Origin: Thermococcaceae archaeon
GTDB lineage: Archaea > Methanobacteriota_B > Thermococci > Thermococcales > Thermococcaceae
Assembly: GCA_026986455.1 (NCBI GenBank)
Contig: JALSON010000120.1
Location: 1 to 13,862 of the forward strand
Direction: 5' to 3'
Length of the DNA: 13,862 nucleotides
The notes beneath the pieces were generated by a model. The model did no database searches. It saw nothing but the letters and a program-made list of their open reading frames with translations, and was not told where the DNA came from. A program made the position numbers and the translations under genes. Below are positions 155 to 7,265 of the stretch, piece after piece. The number at the start of each line of letters is the position of its first letter. Position 1 is the stretch's first letter.

Positions 155-201
155 CATTTAAAGGTTTATTTAGTATTTATCTTGAAAATTGCATGGAGGT
201 G
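155..201 (+). promoter_or_regulatory. cstA promoter (TATA candidate) and ribosome binding site
   Basis: An archaeal TATA-like element (TTTAAAGG at 157-164, overlapping GTTTATTTA at 164-172) sits about 45 nt before the chosen start, which would place transcription start near 185-190. A strong Shine-Dalgarno site GGAGGTG at 195-201 lies 6 nt before GTG 208. That spacing rules out the in-frame ATG at 193, because the site would then lie inside the coding region. Confidence 0.5.
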
Positions 202-207
202 CAATCC

Positions 208-1905
208 GTGAACTCTGCTGTAGTTATTTTGATAGCAGCTGCAATATATGTGGGTATGTATTTTACCTATGGAAAAGCCCTGCAGAATAAGGTTGTTAGA
301 GCAGATTCAAACAGACCAACCCCTGCACACAAGCTCTATGACGGTGTCGACTACGTCCCTGCACACCCGATGGTTCTATACGGCCACCACTTCGCTTCCA
401 TTGCTGGCGCCGGGCCGATCGTCGGTCCTGCTGTCGCAATGGCCTGGGGATGGCTGCCAGGACTCCTGTGGGTCTGGTTTGGAAACGTATTTATCGGTGC
501 CGTCCACGACTACCTTGCACTGATGTCCTCAGTCCGCTACGACGGTAAGTCAGTTCAGTGGATTGCAGGAAAGCTCATGAGCAGGAGAACGAGTATGGCC
601 TTCGAGCTCTACGTATGGTTTGCACTTGTTCTCGTGGTGGCAGCTTTTGGTGCAGTCATAAGTGGAATATTCGTCAATACCCCCGGAGCCGCAACTGCAT
701 CATGGCTCTTTATGCTTGTAGCAGTAATTCTTGGTCTGCTTCTCTACAGATGGCAGATTGAATTCAAGCTTGGAACCATCATTGGCATTTTACTTTTAAT
801 AGCTGCAATATACCTAGGCTTCAAGTTCCCGTTGCATGCAAGCAAGCACACATGGCTCATCGCCCTTGGAATATACGTTATCATTGCCTCATCCCTGCCA
901 GTCTGGATTCTTCTGCAGCCGAGGGATTACCTCAATGCATACATCCTCTGGTTCGGCCTTATCCTTGGTGGTCTGGCTTTCATAGTGGTGGGCTTTAAAG
1001 GTGGAACGTTCACTGCTCCAGCATATACCAGCTGGTCAGCTAATGTTGTTGGAGGGAAACCTTCTCCCTTCTGGCCTACAATACCACTGGTAATTGCCTG
1101 TGGATCTCTCAGTGGCTTCCATTCAATAGTTGGATCCGGGACAAGTAGTAAACAGCTTGACAATGAGCTTCATGGCCTCATGGTAGGATATGGAGGAATG
1201 TTTACCGAGGGATTCCTATCAACTATCGTCATTGCATCGATATCAGTTTATGGTCTTCAAGTCTTCCAGAGCCTTAAAATCCCGGTTAATGTCGCTAGCT
1301 GGGGAACCCAGTATGCAATTCAGGTTGTTAAACATGGAATAAAGGTCGGAATTTTCGCAAAAAGTTATGCTCTTGGTGTTCATAATGCATTTGGCTTCTC
1401 AACAGAGGGGGCTGCGCTCTTTGCAAGCCTGTGGGTTGCAGCATTTGCACTGACGACTCTCGATACTGCCACAAGGCTTGGTAGATTCGCCTGGCAGGAA
1501 ATCATAGAAATGATTAGCGGGCCTGATGTTCTTAAGAACAAGTGGATCGCTTCGATAATCCTTGTGGTCTTTGGAATTTACATGGCATGGGGAGGAAACT
1601 GGCTCATAATATGGCCTGCATTCAGCGGCATGAACCAGATGCTTGCGAGCATTGCTCTAATGACGGCTTCACTCTGGGTTGCCAAGGTACAGCGGCCTGC
1701 AGGAGCCTGGAAGTGGGCTGTTGTGATTCCCGCACTTTTCCTCTGGATTACCGTTACGGCAGCACTGGTGTGGTTCCTCGTCGTCATCAGACCGGGCTTC
1801 TGGGTTAGCCTCATCACAATCGTCGGCCTGCTCCTCAACCTGCTGCTGGTCTTTGACTGGTATGAAGCATGGAGGAAGCCGGCTGAGGAATACGCGGCCG
1901 CATGA
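208..1905 (+). CDS. cstA: CstA-family carbon starvation / peptide-pyruvate transporter
   Basis: A 565-residue, highly hydrophobic polytopic membrane protein. Family signatures are clear: GHHFASIAGAGPIVGP at about residues 59-74, PRDYLN near 239, SGFHSIVGSGTSSKQ at about 302-316, GGMFTEG near 329, and LDTATRLGRFAWQE in the second half. In bacteria CstA and its relatives BtsT/YhjX take up peptides or pyruvate during carbon limitation; in a peptide-fermenting archaeon peptide uptake is a reasonable inference, but substrate cannot be read from sequence. GTG 208 was chosen because of the GGAGGTG site 6 nt upstream; an ATG at 193 would add five residues. It stands alone, with no BtsSR-type two-component genes nearby. 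A T-rich tract follows the stop. Confidence 0.93.
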   Translation: MNSAVVILIAAAIYVGMYFTYGKALQNKVVRADSNRPTPAHKLYDGVDYVPAHPMVLYGHHFASIAGAGPIVGPAVAMAWGWLPGLLWVWFGNVFIGAVHDYLALMSSVRYDGKSVQWIAGKLMSRRTSMAFELYVWFALVLVVAAFGAVISGIFVNTPGAATASWLFMLVAVILGLLLYRWQIEFKLGTIIGILLLIAAIYLGFKFPLHASKHTWLIALGIYVIIASSLPVWILLQPRDYLNAYILWFGLILGGLAFIVVGFKGGTFTAPAYTSWSANVVGGKPSPFWPTIPLVIACGSLSGFHSIVGSGTSSKQLDNELHGLMVGYGGMFTEGFLSTIVIASISVYGLQVFQSLKIPVNVASWGTQYAIQVVKHGIKVGIFAKSYALGVHNAFGFSTEGAALFASLWVAAFALTTLDTATRLGRFAWQEIIEMISGPDVLKNKWIASIILVVFGIYMAWGGNWLIIWPAFSGMNQMLASIALMTASLWVAKVQRPAGAWKWAVVIPALFLWITVTAALVWFLVVIRPGFWVSLITIVGLLLNLLLVFDWYEAWRKPAEEYAAA

Positions 1906-1944: not shown

Positions 1945-2230
1945 ATGTTGGATACAAAGGAGCTTCTCAGGATGGCATCACTACCTTTGAGGTTTCTGGC
2001 CGAATTCCATAGGGGATTCAGGCTGAACTATGTGAGGGGACTCCAGTGGGAAGAGGAGGAGCTGGAAAATATCCTCGCTCTGGTGCTCTTCGGGAGCTAT
2101 ATCGGCCTTCCACACCCGCCCGGTGGAGCTCATCTACCGCCTGCTCCCCCATATGCTCAGGGAGATATATGTAATGCAGGAGAAGAGCCTCGAAAGACCC
2201 GGGATAAAAACCGGCTGGATAGGAGTTTAG
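1945..2230 (+). pseudogene. Small hydrophobic-motif protein, paralogue of the next gene, broken by a +1 frameshift
   Basis: ATG 1945 has a strong AAGGAGGG site (1933-1940). The frame as given runs to 2235, but after GLPHPP (about residue 59) it turns into a low-complexity Pro/Ala/Arg tail. Dropping one base in the run around 2119-2123 restores a frame ending at TAG 2228-2230. That frame reads VELIYRLLPHMLREIYVMQ, matching the next gene's TLVMRLMPHMVREIHVMQ. The corrected product is about 94 residues against 93 for its neighbour. Shared motif: ELEN, a hydrophobic stretch, IG-[IL]-P-x-PP, then RL-[LM]-PHM-x-REI-x-VMQ. No known family was recognised. It may be a true frameshift or a sequencing error. 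Confidence 0.7.
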
Positions 2231-2246
2231 GGTAGGAGGTTAAACA

Positions 2247-2528
2247 ATGGGCAGGAAGATTATAGATGATGTCAGGGCATTCCTCACAGGTTTTGCCGGA
2301 TCATTCAGACAGCAGTCGACGGAGTACATAGAGTTTGAGCTCAGGGAACTGGAGAATGTCTTTACGCTGACTCTCATGGGGGCGTTTATAGGCATTCCCT
2401 CCCCCCCGACGACGCTCGTGATGAGACTGATGCCACATATGGTGAGGGAGATTCACGTAATGCAGCAGAGAGCTGTTGACCTTGATGATGTGTTTGCTGA
2501 AGTTGCAGGAATGTTTGATATAGATTGA
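2247..2528 (+). CDS. Small conserved protein of unknown function, paralogue of the preceding gene
   Basis: A 93-residue protein with site AGGAGGT (2234-2240) before ATG 2247. After an amphipathic N-terminal part (residues 1-30) come ELEN at about 34-37, a hydrophobic segment at about 38-50, the turn IGIPSPP, and a helix with RLMPHMVREIHVMQ; the tail is acidic. The hydrophobic stretch is interrupted by prolines and rather short for a membrane span. I do not recognise the family. The stop (2526-2528) overlaps the Shine-Dalgarno region of the ATPase gene, so the two are very likely co-transcribed and coupled. Position directly before an ArsA/Get3-type ATPase suggests a partner, adaptor or client, which is inference from context only. 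Confidence 0.8.
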   Translation: MGRKIIDDVRAFLTGFAGSFRQQSTEYIEFELRELENVFTLTLMGAFIGIPSPPTTLVMRLMPHMVREIHVMQQRAVDLDDVFAEVAGMFDID

Positions 2529-2537
2529 GGTGAGAGC

Positions 2538-3530
2538 ATGAGGGAGTACCTGCTTCCAAAGGAAGAATTCAGGACGGTGTTCGTCATCGGAAAAGGGGGC
2601 GTCGGGAAGACCACAACCAGCGCCGCTTTAGCTGTAGCCCTCGCAAAAAAAGGGTACAGGACGCTCATTGTCTCACTCGACCCGGCACACAACCTCGGTG
2701 ATGTTTTCATGGTGAAGCTCACGGACAAACCCAAAAAGCTGGCAGAGAACCTCTACGCCAGCGAACTTGACATGGAGAAGCTCATAAAAGGGTATCTCAA
2801 GCACCTCGAAAAGAACCTCAAAAACATGTACCGCTACCTGACTGTCATAAATCTTGAGAAGTACTTTGAGGTGCTGAGCTATTCGCCGGGCATTGAGGAA
2901 TATGCGACGCTTGAGGCTGTGAGGGAGATACTCGTCAGCGGAAACGAGTGGGATGTCATAGTCTTCGACACACCCCCTACAGGTTTAACGCTCCGCGTTT
3001 TAGCACTTCCAAGAATTTCGCTCATATGGGCCGACAGGCTCATTGAGATACGGCGTAAAATCCTTGAAAGGAGGAGGGCTATAGCGAAGATACAGGGCGA
3101 GCAGAAATTCGTGGTTGGTGGAGAAGAAATAACACTCGCAAAGGAGGAGGAAGAAGACGCCGTCATGAAGGAGCTCAAAGCATACCGCTCAGAGGTGGAG
3201 TTCGTTGAGAGGGTTATCACAGACCCCGACAGGACGAGCGTTGTGGCCGTCATGAACCCGGAGATGCTTCCGCTCTATGAGACAGAGAGGGCATACGAGA
3301 GCCTGAAAAAGTTCGGAATTCCCTTCAACCTCGTTGTCGTGAACAAAGTCATAACACTGGAGAAGGACATCCCCGAGCTCAGAGTAAAGCTCGATGCCCA
3401 GAAGAAAGTCCTTTCCGGGATAGAGAAGAGGTTCAGGGGTATAGACATAATCAGGATACCGATGTTTGCCGAAGAGCCAAGGGGACTGGAATGGCTTGAA
3501 AAGCTCGGAGGCAGCGTGCTTGAGGGCTGA
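2538..3530 (+). CDS. ArsA/Get3-family ATPase without cysteines
   Basis: A 330-residue cytosolic P-loop ATPase of the deviant Walker A (signature lysine) class. Visible elements: GKGGVGKTT at 18-26; SLDPAHNLGDVF at 46-57, where D48 aligns with the catalytic Asp of yeast Get3; SPGIEEYATLEAV at 116-128; switch II FDTPPTGLTLRVLALP at 143-158; VVNK at 267-270; and IPMFAEEPRGLEWLEKL near 307-323. It is single-domain like Get3, not tandem like bacterial ArsA. No arsenite-efflux gene is nearby and no Cys exists, so neither metalloid binding nor the Get3 CxxC zinc site is possible. The helical arm (about 159-228), which holds clients in Get3, is strongly charged here. ATG 2538 follows GAGGTGA. Annotation as an arsenical pump ATPase would mislead; the real substrate is unknown. 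Confidence 0.9.
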   Translation: MREYLLPKEEFRTVFVIGKGGVGKTTTSAALAVALAKKGYRTLIVSLDPAHNLGDVFMVKLTDKPKKLAENLYASELDMEKLIKGYLKHLEKNLKNMYRYLTVINLEKYFEVLSYSPGIEEYATLEAVREILVSGNEWDVIVFDTPPTGLTLRVLALPRISLIWADRLIEIRRKILERRRAIAKIQGEQKFVVGGEEITLAKEEEEDAVMKELKAYRSEVEFVERVITDPDRTSVVAVMNPEMLPLYETERAYESLKKFGIPFNLVVVNKVITLEKDIPELRVKLDAQKKVLSGIEKRFRGIDIIRIPMFAEEPRGLEWLEKLGGSVLEG

Positions 3531-3813
3531 AGAGATACTGAACCTGCTTAGAAACGTCAGGAATCCCTTCACAGGTATGGACATAGTGAGCGAGGGTCTC
3601 GTTACAAAAGTCGTCGTTGAGGAGGAAAGAACCATCATCTACGTCGCCTTTGCACGGAACACCCCGCCACAGCCCTTTGCCATGGCAGTAAACTGGCCGG
3701 TTCAGGCAAAGATTATCAGGGAGATGGCAAAGGTTTTAGAGGGTAAACTCGGATACTTTGAGGTGATCGATGACATGACATTGCAGCGGTATTATCCGTT
3801 TGAGGAGGTTTGA
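3520..3813 (+). CDS. DUF59/MIP18-like protein lacking the conserved Cys
   Basis: A 97-residue protein. Start TTG 3520 overlaps the ATPase stop by 11 nt, has GGAG at 3507-3510, and gives MRAEEILNLLRNVRNPFTGMD, the usual DUF59 opening of a helix followed by (K/R)(D/N)P...DIV. The longer frame upstream merely shadows the ATPase. GMDIVSEGLVTKVVV and the C-terminal VIDDMTLQRYYP region also fit the fold. In most DUF59 proteins (SufT, MIP18, PaaD) a loop with a reactive Cys of type 'PGCP' aids Fe-S cluster handling; here it reads NTPPQPFAMAVNWP, and the protein has no Cys at all. A classical Fe-S role is therefore doubtful. Coupling to an ArsA/Get3-type ATPase recalls Mrp/Nbp35-DUF59 pairs but with a different ATPase class. 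Confidence 0.78.
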   Translation: MRAEEILNLLRNVRNPFTGMDIVSEGLVTKVVVEEERTIIYVAFARNTPPQPFAMAVNWPVQAKIIREMAKVLEGKLGYFEVIDDMTLQRYYPFEEV

Positions 3814-3815
3814 TA

Positions 3816-4472
3816 ATGGAGATAACGGCAGGATTGATACTCGCAATAATGGTCTTAGCTGCGGTTTCCTCCATCCAGTTTTATAAGGGGAGAAAGCTGA
3901 ACCTCCAGCTCATGCAGCACTACCTGCGCTCGATTGAGGACGTGGTAAAGCCGGAGGACAAGGAATACGTCTGGCTTGGAGGCTACATCGGCTTCAGGGC
4001 ATATTACAAGGTCAGCAGGGACAACATCAGAAAGTTTGAATACACGCTCACACTTCTCCCGAGGCAGAGCATCCTCTACTTCCCAGTATCCCTGCTCACC
4101 AGCAGGCACGACAAGCTCTACATAGTCGTGAGGCCCTTCAACCAGATAAAGAGGGAGGCACACCTGATTCAGAAGGGCTACTACAGGATAAAGCCGAGGA
4201 TTGAAAACGAGGAGCTCCTGCAGAGGGAGATTATTGAGATAGATGGGAAGAAGTATGAAGCCCTGTATGAAAAGAGGAGGGACATCGAAAGGCTCAGGTA
4301 TCTCGTTGAGAGCCTGTCAAAGCCCCATAACGTCAAGCACGTCTCGCTAACACCCGATACCAATGTCTTCTATGTCCTCATGAAGCCGGAGCCCGATACG
4401 ATAGAGGGGGACATATCGAAAATCGTGCGCTTTGTCAATGAAAAGCTCAGGGAGAGCCCGTTTTCGTCTTAA
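3816..4472 (+). CDS. Membrane-anchored protein with a cytoplasmic domain, unknown function
   Basis: Start ATG 3816 is preceded by GAGGAGGT (3802-3809); TTG 3810 in the same frame is less likely. The 218-residue product has one N-terminal membrane segment (about residues 3-20) followed by YKGRK, which by the positive-inside rule puts the remaining 195 residues in the cytoplasm. That part alternates strands and helices: YVWLGGYIGFRAYYKV, a basic TLLPRQSILYFP stretch, KLYIVVRPF, then a charged helix and VNVFYVLMK-like strands near the C-terminus (NVFYVLMKPEP). No Cys. I do not recognise the family with confidence. As the last gene after an ArsA/Get3-type ATPase it could be the membrane dock for that ATPase; this is inference. 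Confidence 0.8.
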   Translation: MEITAGLILAIMVLAAVSSIQFYKGRKLNLQLMQHYLRSIEDVVKPEDKEYVWLGGYIGFRAYYKVSRDNIRKFEYTLTLLPRQSILYFPVSLLTSRHDKLYIVVRPFNQIKREAHLIQKGYYRIKPRIENEELLQREIIEIDGKKYEALYEKRRDIERLRYLVESLSKPHNVKHVSLTPDTNVFYVLMKPEPDTIEGDISKIVRFVNEKLRESPFSS

Positions 4473-4522: not shown

Positions 4523-4777
4523 TTGGTGATACCTCTGGTAAGTATACGCCTCAAAGTCGGACCAAAGGGGCAGATAGTCATCCCCAAGGTCTTCCGTGAA
4601 GCCTACGGTATAAAGGAGGGTGGGGAGGTTATAGTTGAACCCACTGACAAAGGGCTGATTCGCCCGTCGGATGCCCTCCATGTGGCGGTGATAGAGAACA
4701 ACGGCCTCCAGGCCATAGTCAGCGAGGATGAAGACTTCGACGTTCTTCCACTGAAAAGGCTCTGGATTAGTGGTTGA
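4523..4777 (+). CDS. In-frame VapB (AbrB-type antitoxin) / VapC (PIN toxin) fusion relic
   Basis: An 84-residue frame joining two halves of a toxin-antitoxin pair. Residues 8-46 are an AbrB/SpoVT swapped-hairpin DNA-binding domain (LKVGPKGQIVIPKVFREAYG, then GIKEGGEVIVEP). Residues 47-84 are the last quarter of a PIN-domain toxin: SDALHVAVIENNGL with acidic D50, then IVSEDEDFDVLPLKRLW. The VapB C-terminal toxin-binding arm and about the first 90 residues of VapC, with two of the catalytic acids, are missing, so nuclease activity is not expected. DNA binding could persist. The likely cause is an internal deletion that kept the frame. Start is TTG 4523 or GTG 4526; no Shine-Dalgarno site is visible. 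It lies directly before the hydrolase gene. Confidence 0.7.
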   Translation: MVIPLVSIRLKVGPKGQIVIPKVFREAYGIKEGGEVIVEPTDKGLIRPSDALHVAVIENNGLQAIVSEDEDFDVLPLKRLWISG

Positions 4778-4778
4778 G

Positions 4779-5549
4779 ATGCTCTACAAAGCCAGGTTCG
4801 GCGAGCCAAAGCTCGGCTGGGTCGTTCTGGTTCACGGCTTAGGAGAGCACAGCGGCAGATATGGGAAGCTCATCTCAATGCTGAATGATGCGGGCTTTGC
4901 GGTCTACACCTTCGACTGGCCGGGCCACGGGAGGAGCGGCGGAAAGAGGGGACACACAAACGTGGAGGAAGCCATGGAGATAATTGACGGTATAATCGAT
5001 GAGATTGGGGAGAAGCCCTTCCTCTTCGGTCACAGCCTCGGCGGACTGACGGTTATCAGGTATGCGGAGACGAGACCCGGGAGAATTCGGGGGGTGGTGG
5101 CTTCCTCACCGGCGCTGATAAAGAGCCCAAAAACACCGGGCTTCATGGTTGTTTTGGCAAAAATCCTCGGAAGAATCGCGCCGGGAATAACCATGTCCAA
5201 CGGATTGAAGCCGGAACTGTTGTCAAGGAACCCTGCAGCCGTGGAGGAGTATATAAATGATCCCCTCGTCCACGACAGAATTTCAGCGGCTCTTGGAAGG
5301 AGCATTTTTGAGAACATGGAAAGGGCCCACAGGGAGGCGGGGAGGATAGCGGTCCCTGTGCTGATTCTGGTGGGTACAGGCGACCTCATAACCCCTCCCG
5401 AGGGGGCAAGAAGGCTCTTTGAAAAGCTGAAGGTTGAGGATAAGACCCTGAAGGAATTCGAGGGAGCATATCATGAGATTTTTGAAGACCCGGAGTGGGG
5501 AGAGGAGTTCCACAGGGTGATAGTTGAGTGGACCACAGGGAGGGGATGA
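4779..5549 (+). CDS. Alpha/beta hydrolase, monoacylglycerol lipase / lysophospholipase type
   Basis: A 256-residue serine hydrolase with no signal peptide, so cytosolic or loosely membrane-associated. HGLGEHSGRY near the N-terminus supplies the oxyanion hole, FDWPGHGRS follows, and the nucleophile elbow GHSLGG gives Ser86. Asp202 (GTGDLITPP) and His232 (GAYHEIFED) complete the triad. It closely resembles annotated Pyrococcus lysophospholipases and the Thermococcus monoacylglycerol lipase. Glycerol-ester substrates are expected, which is curious because archaeal membrane lipids are ethers; imported or foreign lipids may be the target. ATG 4779 matches the N-terminus I recall for relatives; GTG 4770 would add three residues and overlap the preceding gene. 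The next gene starts 7 nt after its stop. Confidence 0.9.
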   Translation: MLYKARFGEPKLGWVVLVHGLGEHSGRYGKLISMLNDAGFAVYTFDWPGHGRSGGKRGHTNVEEAMEIIDGIIDEIGEKPFLFGHSLGGLTVIRYAETRPGRIRGVVASSPALIKSPKTPGFMVVLAKILGRIAPGITMSNGLKPELLSRNPAAVEEYINDPLVHDRISAALGRSIFENMERAHREAGRIAVPVLILVGTGDLITPPEGARRLFEKLKVEDKTLKEFEGAYHEIFEDPEWGEEFHRVIVEWTTGRG

Positions 5550-5556
5550 GAGGAAC

Positions 5557-6471
5557 GTGAGGAAACTGGTTGTAGAACCTTTGGAAACAAAATTCATCAG
5601 CAGATTGGCTATATTTTTCCTGCTGTTCTTTGTTGCGGTCACCGTTTCTACCCTGCTCCGGATGGCGGGGAATGCCTCGGGAGCAGCTCTGCTGGGCATC
5701 ATGATGTATCTGATATTTGCTTCGGTGATTGGGGCTCTTCTGCTGTTTTCGCTCAGAAGGCTCAGGGCAAGGGAGAAAGCGGCGGCGATGCTGGCATCCT
5801 CCTCCGGGATAGAAAATGGCACGATTACATTCCCAGAAGAGCTTGAGTTTGAGTACGGCAGGCTTATTCTGGGGGAACGCCCTGCAAAGGAATTCAGAGC
5901 GGAGGGTAAAGGGAAAGGCAGAAGCATCCCCTTCATGAACGGAGAGTTCAGGCTTTTGATAACCCCTGAGGGAGAAGGCTTTGCAAGCTTCCCCGCCGTG
6001 AAGATACTGAGCAGGCCTTACGAGGGGGTTATGCTGCTCTTTATGACCAGCGAGGGCAGGGTCGTCTGCAGAAAATCCCTCAGCATCCCAACATCCGAGG
6101 GCTCCCTCCATCTGGATCTGGAAGGGATGGGAAGGACACTCAGGGGAAGGATATACTCAACCCCGGAAAAAACGGAAAAGATAAGGGTTCTTCTGGGGAT
6201 TCCGGAATGGGGAGGGATGGAGGTCAGGGTTGCAGGAGGTGCCATAAGGGAGTTCCGGTACAGCATGCTTCCAGATGAGAAGACCGTAATCTACGCCCCA
6301 TACGGGGCGCTGAGTTTGAGCGGGATAGCCAGAAAACTTGAAAGAAAGGGAGTCGTGCTCGGCCATGGGGAGTTTCTGATAAGGTTCACAGTTGAAGGAC
6401 ATCTCAAAAAGAGATATTCAAGCAGGGAAAGCTTTAAAGTCCTTATGGGGGAAAACGAATGGGGGATTTGA
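5557..6471 (+). CDS. Two-TM membrane protein with a soluble C-terminal domain, unknown function
   Basis: A 304-residue protein from GTG 5557, which has purine-rich GGGATGAGAGG just upstream; an in-frame TTG at 5524 would overlap the hydrolase by 26 nt and is less likely. Two membrane spans (about residues 17-34 and 43-66) form a short hairpin, with a basic stretch (RRLRAREK) after the second, so both ends should be cytoplasmic. The remaining 235 residues look beta-rich, with many short strands and glycines (for example RGRIYSTPEKTEKIRVLLGI and GGMEVRVAGGAIREF), and contain a single Cys. I do not recognise the family. It is packed between the hydrolase and the metalloprotease with gaps of a few bases or overlap, so co-expression is likely. 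Confidence 0.8.
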   Translation: MRKLVVEPLETKFISRLAIFFLLFFVAVTVSTLLRMAGNASGAALLGIMMYLIFASVIGALLLFSLRRLRAREKAAAMLASSSGIENGTITFPEELEFEYGRLILGERPAKEFRAEGKGKGRSIPFMNGEFRLLITPEGEGFASFPAVKILSRPYEGVMLLFMTSEGRVVCRKSLSIPTSEGSLHLDLEGMGRTLRGRIYSTPEKTEKIRVLLGIPEWGGMEVRVAGGAIREFRYSMLPDEKTVIYAPYGALSLSGIARKLERKGVVLGHGEFLIRFTVEGHLKKRYSSRESFKVLMGENEWGI

Positions 6472-7265
6472 TGCTGATCAATACATTCCCCGACTTCATC
6501 GAACGCTGGGACGGGAGCGCCGCTTCATGGATGGAATACATCCAGCGGCACCCGGAGCTCTTTGAGAAGATTAAGTGGGATTATGAGCGGTACAAAATGG
6601 ACTGGAGGGAATACCTGAAGCTTCTCACAAAGAGAAGCACCGATGAGCTTAAGCTTGCGTATGAAACTCTGCTGAAGGTTCTCCCGGAGGTGGAGAGGAA
6701 GATTAGGGCACGCTTTGACATCAAAGACTACAATATTGTAATCTACGTTGGCCTTGAGAACGGAGCCGGATGGGTAACCGAATTCATGGGGAAGCCCTCA
6801 ATTCTTTTCGGCCTTGAAGCTATTGCAGAGCTTAAATGGTATGACAGGCTTGAAGGGCTGATTGCCCATGAGTTTGGACATCTGGTTCACTGGCTTTTAC
6901 GAGGGGAGGACATAGAGAAACTTGAGGATGAGGGGATGATGTGGCTCTACACGGAAGGATTTGCCCAGAGGATTGAGGATATAGTAGCAGGTAGACCCTG
7001 GGAGGTCGAGAGTGAAGGATGGTTTGAATGGTGTGAAGAAAATGAAAAGCTCCTTAAAGAAGAGTTCTTGAGGAGGGTTAAAAAGGGAGAAGCTTTGAAT
7101 CCATTCTTTGGCTCATGGTATCAGCTCTTTGGAAAGCAGTTCCTCGGATATTATCTCGGCTACAGGTTCATTTTAAGTCTTGAGGAAAGGCTCCAGCTTA
7201 AAGAAATCGCAAAGCTGGAAAAAGAAAGGATTAAGGAGGAAATCCTGAGGTTCCTTGAGTCATGA
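6459..7265 (+). CDS. Putative zinc metalloprotease (HEFGH gluzincin-like)
   Basis: A 268-residue protein, no signal peptide or TM segment. The zinc-binding helix LIAHEFGHLVHW gives H137 and H141 with catalytic E138. A second helix, LYTEGFAQRIEDI, offers E166 as the third ligand, the arrangement of predicted Zn-dependent proteases of the DUF2268 type. The N-terminus INTFPDFIERW followed by a helical region also fits these. Substrate unknown. The first ATG (6459) overlaps the previous gene by 13 nt; ATG 6471 forms a TGATG with its stop and has GGGGGA 4 nt before it, so either start is possible (the later one gives 264 residues). The stop codon shares a TCATGA palindrome with the convergent GH57 gene. 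Confidence 0.82.
   Translation: MGDLMLINTFPDFIERWDGSAASWMEYIQRHPELFEKIKWDYERYKMDWREYLKLLTKRSTDELKLAYETLLKVLPEVERKIRARFDIKDYNIVIYVGLENGAGWVTEFMGKPSILFGLEAIAELKWYDRLEGLIAHEFGHLVHWLLRGEDIEKLEDEGMMWLYTEGFAQRIEDIVAGRPWEVESEGWFEWCEENEKLLKEEFLRRVKKGEALNPFFGSWYQLFGKQFLGYYLGYRFILSLEERLQLKEIAKLEKERIKEEILRFLES

Follow-up and report, generated by a model that had tools for sequence, protein, structure and literature searches.

A Get3-Type ATPase in the Thermococcales CstA-ArsA-CstX-CstY Operon and Its Possible Role in Carbon-Starvation Transport

Which process is served by an ArsA/Get3-type ATPase whose gene stands in a tight cluster from which ars genes are absent? The question is raised by the 13,862-nt contig JALSON010000120.1 (C120; hereafter the window), from a Thermococcaceae archaeon genome that is 74% complete and encodes proteins matching Thermococcus. 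A first-pass annotation had placed the start of the unit at position 1945; cstA, which ends 39 bases upstream, encodes a protein with one cysteine and belongs to the unit, was overlooked. The locus represents the CstA-ArsA-CstX-CstY operon in its Thermococcales form, an assignment made by gene size, order, context, and species, and set against the published description of that operon rather than its sequences. We propose, with a probability of roughly 55%, that a dimer of the ATPase is docked on CstA with CstX as the linker and CstY as the anchor, and that ATP would energize or gate CstA transport. The genes of the unit are listed below in their order.

cstA, 193..1905, + strand: carbon-starvation-type transporter of PF02554 (Pfam CstA, E = 1.5e-129), first gene of the unit.
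cstX1 (small protein 1), 1945..2235, + strand: frameshifted here, with about 58 N-terminal codons in frame 1 and, starting at about 2117, the conserved rest in the +1 frame.
cstX2 (small protein 2), 2247..2528, + strand: 93 residues, predicted helical hairpin, sub-threshold match to cory-CC-star, terminal cysteines absent.
ArsA/Get3-family ATPase, 2538..3530, + strand: single-domain protein of 330 residues, PF02374 (257.5 bits) and TIGR00345, closest solved chain 3zq6.
DUF59/FeS_assembly_P-type protein, 3520..3813, + strand: 97 residues from a TTG start, PF01883 above the Pfam cut-off (33.4 versus 23.5 bits), CxxC absent.
cstY, 3816..4472, + strand: 218 residues, N-terminal membrane helix and globular domain, CCDC47/TtfA-like fold in the AlphaFold2 model.

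The intergenic gaps within the unit are 39, 11, 9, and 2 bases, the start of the DUF59 gene overlaps the end of the ATPase gene by 11 bases, and GGAGG- or GAGGTG-like sites resembling ribosome-binding sites precede each of the five genes after cstA. The first-pass description of five tightly packed genes with Shine-Dalgarno sites was accurate in these respects, although the first gene is not intact. The frame of cstX1 is broken near 2109-2120, and the conserved second half continues in the +1 frame; the genes for CstX2, the ATPase, the DUF59 protein, and CstY are intact. An intact cstX1 was found in 12 of the 29 loci of relatives (13 of 30 when the broken copy in the window is counted), and the frameshift in this optional gene may reflect either real decay or an assembly error.

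According to the main text of Castillo and Saier 2010 (PMC2963123), ArsA homologues occur with CstA in 26 cases, 24 of which also have CstX, and CstY is present in five archaea. The paper named CstX (~90 residues) and CstY (~210 residues, one transmembrane segment), lists T. kodakarensis, T. barophilus, T. onnurineus, and P. abyssi with their ATPases in one cluster, and reports two CstX paralogues in T. kodakarensis. It was proposed there that the ATPase energizes CstA and that CstX is the linker. The present locus agrees with that operon in its gene set and in the sizes of the ATPase (330 versus ~330 residues), CstX2 (93), and CstY (218, with one transmembrane segment). It differs in the frameshifted CstX1 and in the fold of CstY, which that main text does not describe; the terms DUF59 and CCDC47 are likewise absent from it. 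Within the literature collection searched, a query on CstX with CstA returned this paper only, and one on Get3 with carbon starvation protein returned none. The suggestion that the operon forms a carbon-starvation transporter energized by ATP has stood in the literature since 2010.

An orthologue of the ATPase was found in 32 of the 37 genomes of the genus, including the window's own. Across 30 loci (window included), CstX2, the ATPase, and CstY are encoded in all and the DUF59 protein in 28, and the conserved gene set expected at first pass therefore passed the synteny comparison proposed for it. Among 94 genomes of the window's family, 81 contain both CstA and CstY, 3 contain only CstY, none contains only CstA, and 10 contain neither. 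In each of the three CstY-only genomes (G002, G063, and G105) the locus is truncated by a contig end, where part of CstA can still be seen in G063.

Searching named genomes with a CstY alignment of 17 rows yielded 41 loci, 18 of which are from Thermococcales and overlap the family genomes. The others include Archaeoglobales (Archaeoglobus, Geoglobus, and Ferroglobus), Ca. Methanoliparum, a Thermoplasmata archaeon, an unplaced euryarchaeon, and, within the Thermoproteota, Acidilobaceae, Sulfolobales, Pyrodictiaceae, Desulfurococcaceae, and Hyperthermus. Near CstY in the 41 loci, we found CstA in 38 (within 8-kb flanks), CstX in 36, and the ATPase in 37 (as pieces in L096 and L107); CstA, CstX, ATPase, and CstY occur together in 35. 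For the 23 loci outside the Thermococcales the counts are 21 for CstA, 19 for CstX, 20 for the ATPase, 9 for DUF59, and 18 for all four. Of the loci with missing members, L081, L096, L107, and L111 come from contigs shorter than 7 kb and L110 is truncated by its contig end; L104 (11 kb) has CstA followed by CstY, with neither CstX nor ATPase. One contig carrying the whole archaeal-type unit (L097) is from a metagenome-assembled genome labeled Synergistetes bacterium and is probably a misbinned archaeal contig.

Another 302 archaea contain CstA in 21 genomes (E ≤ 1e-10) and a match to CstY in 13 (E ≤ 0.01), several of the latter being marginal. Three plus a further 12 of the 21 distant CstA genomes were looked at and 6 were left out. 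The unit is present in the first three (G199, G306, and G377). Eight of the 12 further loci (L120-L124, L126, L127, and L129) have a divergent CstY-like open reading frame (ORF) at E ≤ 0.03, calculated over the ORFs of each locus; those of L120, L122, and L129 are marginal, and the genome of L125 has one on another contig. Two ATPase genes were found together with CstX-like genes, mostly two, in 9 of the 12 (L120-L126, L128, and L129), and this pairing suggests a heterodimeric ATPase.

The identification of the ATPase as ArsA/Get3-type at first pass was supported by TIGR00345 (258.5 bits, cut-off 135). The motifs GKGGVGKT, DPAHNLGD, and DTPPTGLT are invariant in an alignment of 22 of the 30 orthologues; we take GKGGVGKT to be the deviant P-loop, the Asp to belong to switch I, and DTPPTG to be switch II. 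The archaeal chain 3zq6 aligns with the protein nearly end to end (4.1e-61). Judged by these alignments, the protein is a member of the ArsA/Get3 family with intact nucleotide-binding motifs. Compared with the Get3/TRC40 and ArsA ATPases as a group, it agrees in family, motifs, and the almost full-length alignment to 3zq6, and differs in being a single domain without CxxC that is encoded beside cstA instead of ars genes. No cysteine is found at the ATPase residues aligned with the CEFC of 3zq6, nor anywhere in the 30 orthologues; the CxxC of Get3 lies at the dimer interface. The arsenite-pump ArsA consists of two fused halves, whereas the ATPase here has 330 residues and scores 113.9 bits against TIGR04291 (cut-off 650). 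Pfam scans of the main ORFs of the window gave no other arsenic family among the matches. No other strong ArsA-type match was found in the incomplete genome to which the window belongs; the second best has an E value of 1.6e-4.

CstX2 from the window matches the NCBIfam model NF041419 (cory-CC-star) with an E value of 4.2e-6 and 26.7 bits (cut-off 80). This protein and nine further CstX1 and CstX2 sequences all match the model (E values from 0.0044 to 8.5e-8), far under the cut-off and over about 50-65 positions. The name cory-CC-star suggests a C-terminal cysteine pair, but no such pair is found in 30 CstX2 or in 12 intact CstX1 proteins. CstX2 is modeled as a helical hairpin whose turn is Pro-rich (GIPSPP) and whose tip is hydrophobic, with a predicted local distance difference test score (pLDDT) of 78.9 and a predicted template modeling score (pTM) of only 0.38; its comparison with PDB structures gave no useful match (best E value of 8.0). 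A PDB profile match of CstX to PAN2 (E = 0.0088) was taken as chance. No paper in the literature collection searched names cory-CC-star or halo-CC-star, and no paper on BagA or BagB with Get3 was among the matches listed.

CstY has a hydropathy peak at its N-terminus that corresponds to a single membrane helix, in agreement with the membrane-anchored protein of the first-pass annotation. Its AlphaFold2 model was found with Foldseek and VIA-align to have a CCDC47/TtfA-like fold, with CCDC47 as the best match, and the CCDC47-type arrangement of transmembrane domain and globular domain is present in the prediction. The alignment with TtfA, an MmpL3 accessory protein of mycolate producers, extends over 153 residues only, and we know of no operon linking TtfA to an ATPase. 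TtfA is described as a membrane-anchored protein that binds MmpL3 and is required for MmpL3 transport (PMC6593404). CstY aligns with residues 135-395 only of CCDC47, a membrane-protein biogenesis factor of human cells that belongs to the PAT complex and to the multipass and SND3 translocons, and ends at residue 218. It lacks a luminal region, the arm of CCDC47 that approaches the ribosome and Sec61 (residues 399-474; PMC8745461), the latch helices described for CCDC47 (PMC12572126), and a significant sequence match.

Attempts to prove the homology of CstY and CCDC47 by sequence mostly failed. The Pfam family PF07946 (CCDC47) matched weakly in 18 of 29 CstY proteins (best E value of 0.0053, under the cut-off), and DUF3974, matching in 11 of the 29 (best E value of 0.003), was equal or better; for the CstY of the window the E values were 0.014 for DUF3974 versus 0.054 for CCDC47. 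Over 61 genomes PF07946 gave no match above the cut-off and 13 genomes with a match at E ≤ 10; the two best (5.8e-4 and 0.007) come from genomes that belong to other families and lack CstY, and the other 11 are all in the CstY gene. PDB profile searches returned nothing relevant to this homology, and hhalign of CstY with a single CCDC47 sequence did not support it, the probabilities being 0.03 to 0.14 percent. Hidden Markov model scores of CstY profiles were compared with those obtained on 2000 shuffles of CCDC47. With the full profile, 15 of the 1607 shuffles that scored equaled or exceeded the real sequence, and with the most divergent members removed, 134 of 1702 did so; only when the profile was built from the seven most divergent members did none of 1524 shuffles do so. 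Among ten divergent CstY-like proteins, three had CCDC47 as the sole weak Pfam match (E values of 0.023, 0.025, and 0.15), and the others matched unrelated families at similar E values. We consider it a tentative possibility, somewhat short of even, that CstY and CCDC47 are true homologues. In that case the core of this eukaryotic PAT/multipass translocon subunit would be older than eukaryotes and would at first have served a polytopic transporter and a Get3-type ATPase as a docking partner in the membrane, with the ribosome/Sec61 arm gained later.

An ArsA-ArsB-like complex on CstA is favored because of the near-perfect linkage to cstA and the joint absence of the genes, the ArsA-type ATPase, the CstY fold shared with TtfA, and the lack of the ribosome arm of CCDC47. 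The ATPase dimer would dock on the cytoplasmic face of CstA, CstX would link the two through its predicted hairpin with a hydrophobic turn, and CstY would be a membrane-anchored docking subunit beside the CstA helices. Much as ArsA acts on ArsB, the ATPase would bind and hydrolyze ATP to energize or gate CstA, which would carry pyruvate- or peptide-like nutrients; the DUF59 protein may be an accessory.

The main rival is dedicated biogenesis of CstA: insertion, shielding, or assembly of this many-helix transporter would fall to the ATPase, CstX, and the CCDC47-like CstY, much as Get3 and the PAT complex act on other membrane proteins. The TRC40/GET3 subfamily of the ATPase, the closeness of the predicted CstY fold to CCDC47 of the multipass translocon, and the strict tie to one large polytopic protein are all consistent with it. 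We nonetheless regard it as less likely, since the CxxC of Get3 is absent from the ATPase, the ribosome/Sec61 arm and latch helices are absent from CstY, and CstA of E. coli is not known to need ATPase, CstX, or CstY partners. Some genomes weigh against both explanations. Pyrodictium occultum (L074, 11741-11995 and neighbors) retains CstX, the ATPase, and CstY beside a CstA remnant of just 84 C-terminal codons, with no CstA match in the genome at E ≤ 1e-10, and a Desulfurococcus genome (L072) has CstY without a CstA match and no ATPase in the 18 kb of sequence covered. Transport energized by the ATPase is further weakened by L130 and L131, where only CstA is found, at a contig end (with 7 kb on its other side in L130), and by the gene linkage itself, which suits an assembly role equally well.

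The first-pass annotation had instead proposed a general thiol-independent ATPase machine for handling hydrophobic segments, defined by about 830 residues without cysteine. Cysteine is indeed lacking in the products of the four intact genes (CstX2, ATPase, DUF59, and CstY; 738 residues), but the first ORF as read has one cysteine, within its shifted tail, so that the figure fails for this ORF. The absence is consistent across the loci: none was found in CstX2 (30 loci, 2795 residues), the ATPase (30, 9931), DUF59 (28, 2711), or CstY (30, 6527), which together with the Get3 family speaks for the proposal. The background was measured in one complete relative, where 416 genes were called by a simple ORF rule in 20 stretches totaling 400 kb. 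Cysteine makes up 0.75% of residues overall, 150 genes (36%) have none, and four same-strand cysteine-free runs of at least 800 residues were found besides the one holding this locus. Two flanking families are also cysteine-free in all orthologues found in 14 loci (epimerase 8/8, prefoldin 6/6). Most of the ATPases aligned from outside the Thermococcales hold 1-4 cysteines, of which three positions are common to five or six rows, mainly Archaeoglobales, and others are scattered. Absence of cysteine as a functional signature was rejected on these counts. The orthologues with conserved cysteines named at first pass as contrary evidence do exist outside the Thermococcales, and because relatives there hold ATPase cysteines and DUF59 CxxC motifs, the loss is, as far as the aligned sequences tell, a Thermococcales trait and not a working principle. 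The near-perfect link to cstA points to a transporter-specific role, and neither CstY nor CstA is found in 10 of the 94 family genomes; a general machine for hydrophobic segments is thus highly improbable.

CxxC (SCKAC, GCNFC, and similar) is present in 10 of 11 aligned DUF59 proteins from outside the Thermococcales, L097 being the one without it. Unit-linked DUF59 proteins with CxxC occur in Archaeoglobales and some Thermoproteota (L071 4211-4501, L075 7655-8077, L096, L098, L099, L101-L103, L107, and L112). This motif would fit a carrier system of DUF59 protein and P-loop ATPase that services a metal site. In the alignment, however, the Thermococcales proteins have lost CxxC; DUF59 is found in only 25 of the 41 loci (some contigs being short), and no Fe-S gene is present inside the unit. 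We therefore give metal or Fe-S handling very little credence.

Downstream of the unit, at positions 4523-4777, the start of a VapB/MazE-type antitoxin runs in frame into the last part of a PIN-type protein. This fusion looks like a deletion relic, because relatives (e.g., L007, L011, and L034) have two separate genes there. Two ORFs with overlapping ends, 5524-6471 (315 residues) and 6459-7265 (268 residues), gave no Pfam match at E ≤ 1e-4.

If energized transport by CstA is correct, the operon would stand beside ArsAB as a second test case for secondary transporters driven by an ATPase. Prokaryotes have been stated to lack PAT components (PMC9630114), and a CCDC47-type protein in archaea, if true, would contradict this statement. 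Genetically tractable hyperthermophiles would then be available for the study of the ancestral CCDC47 fold.
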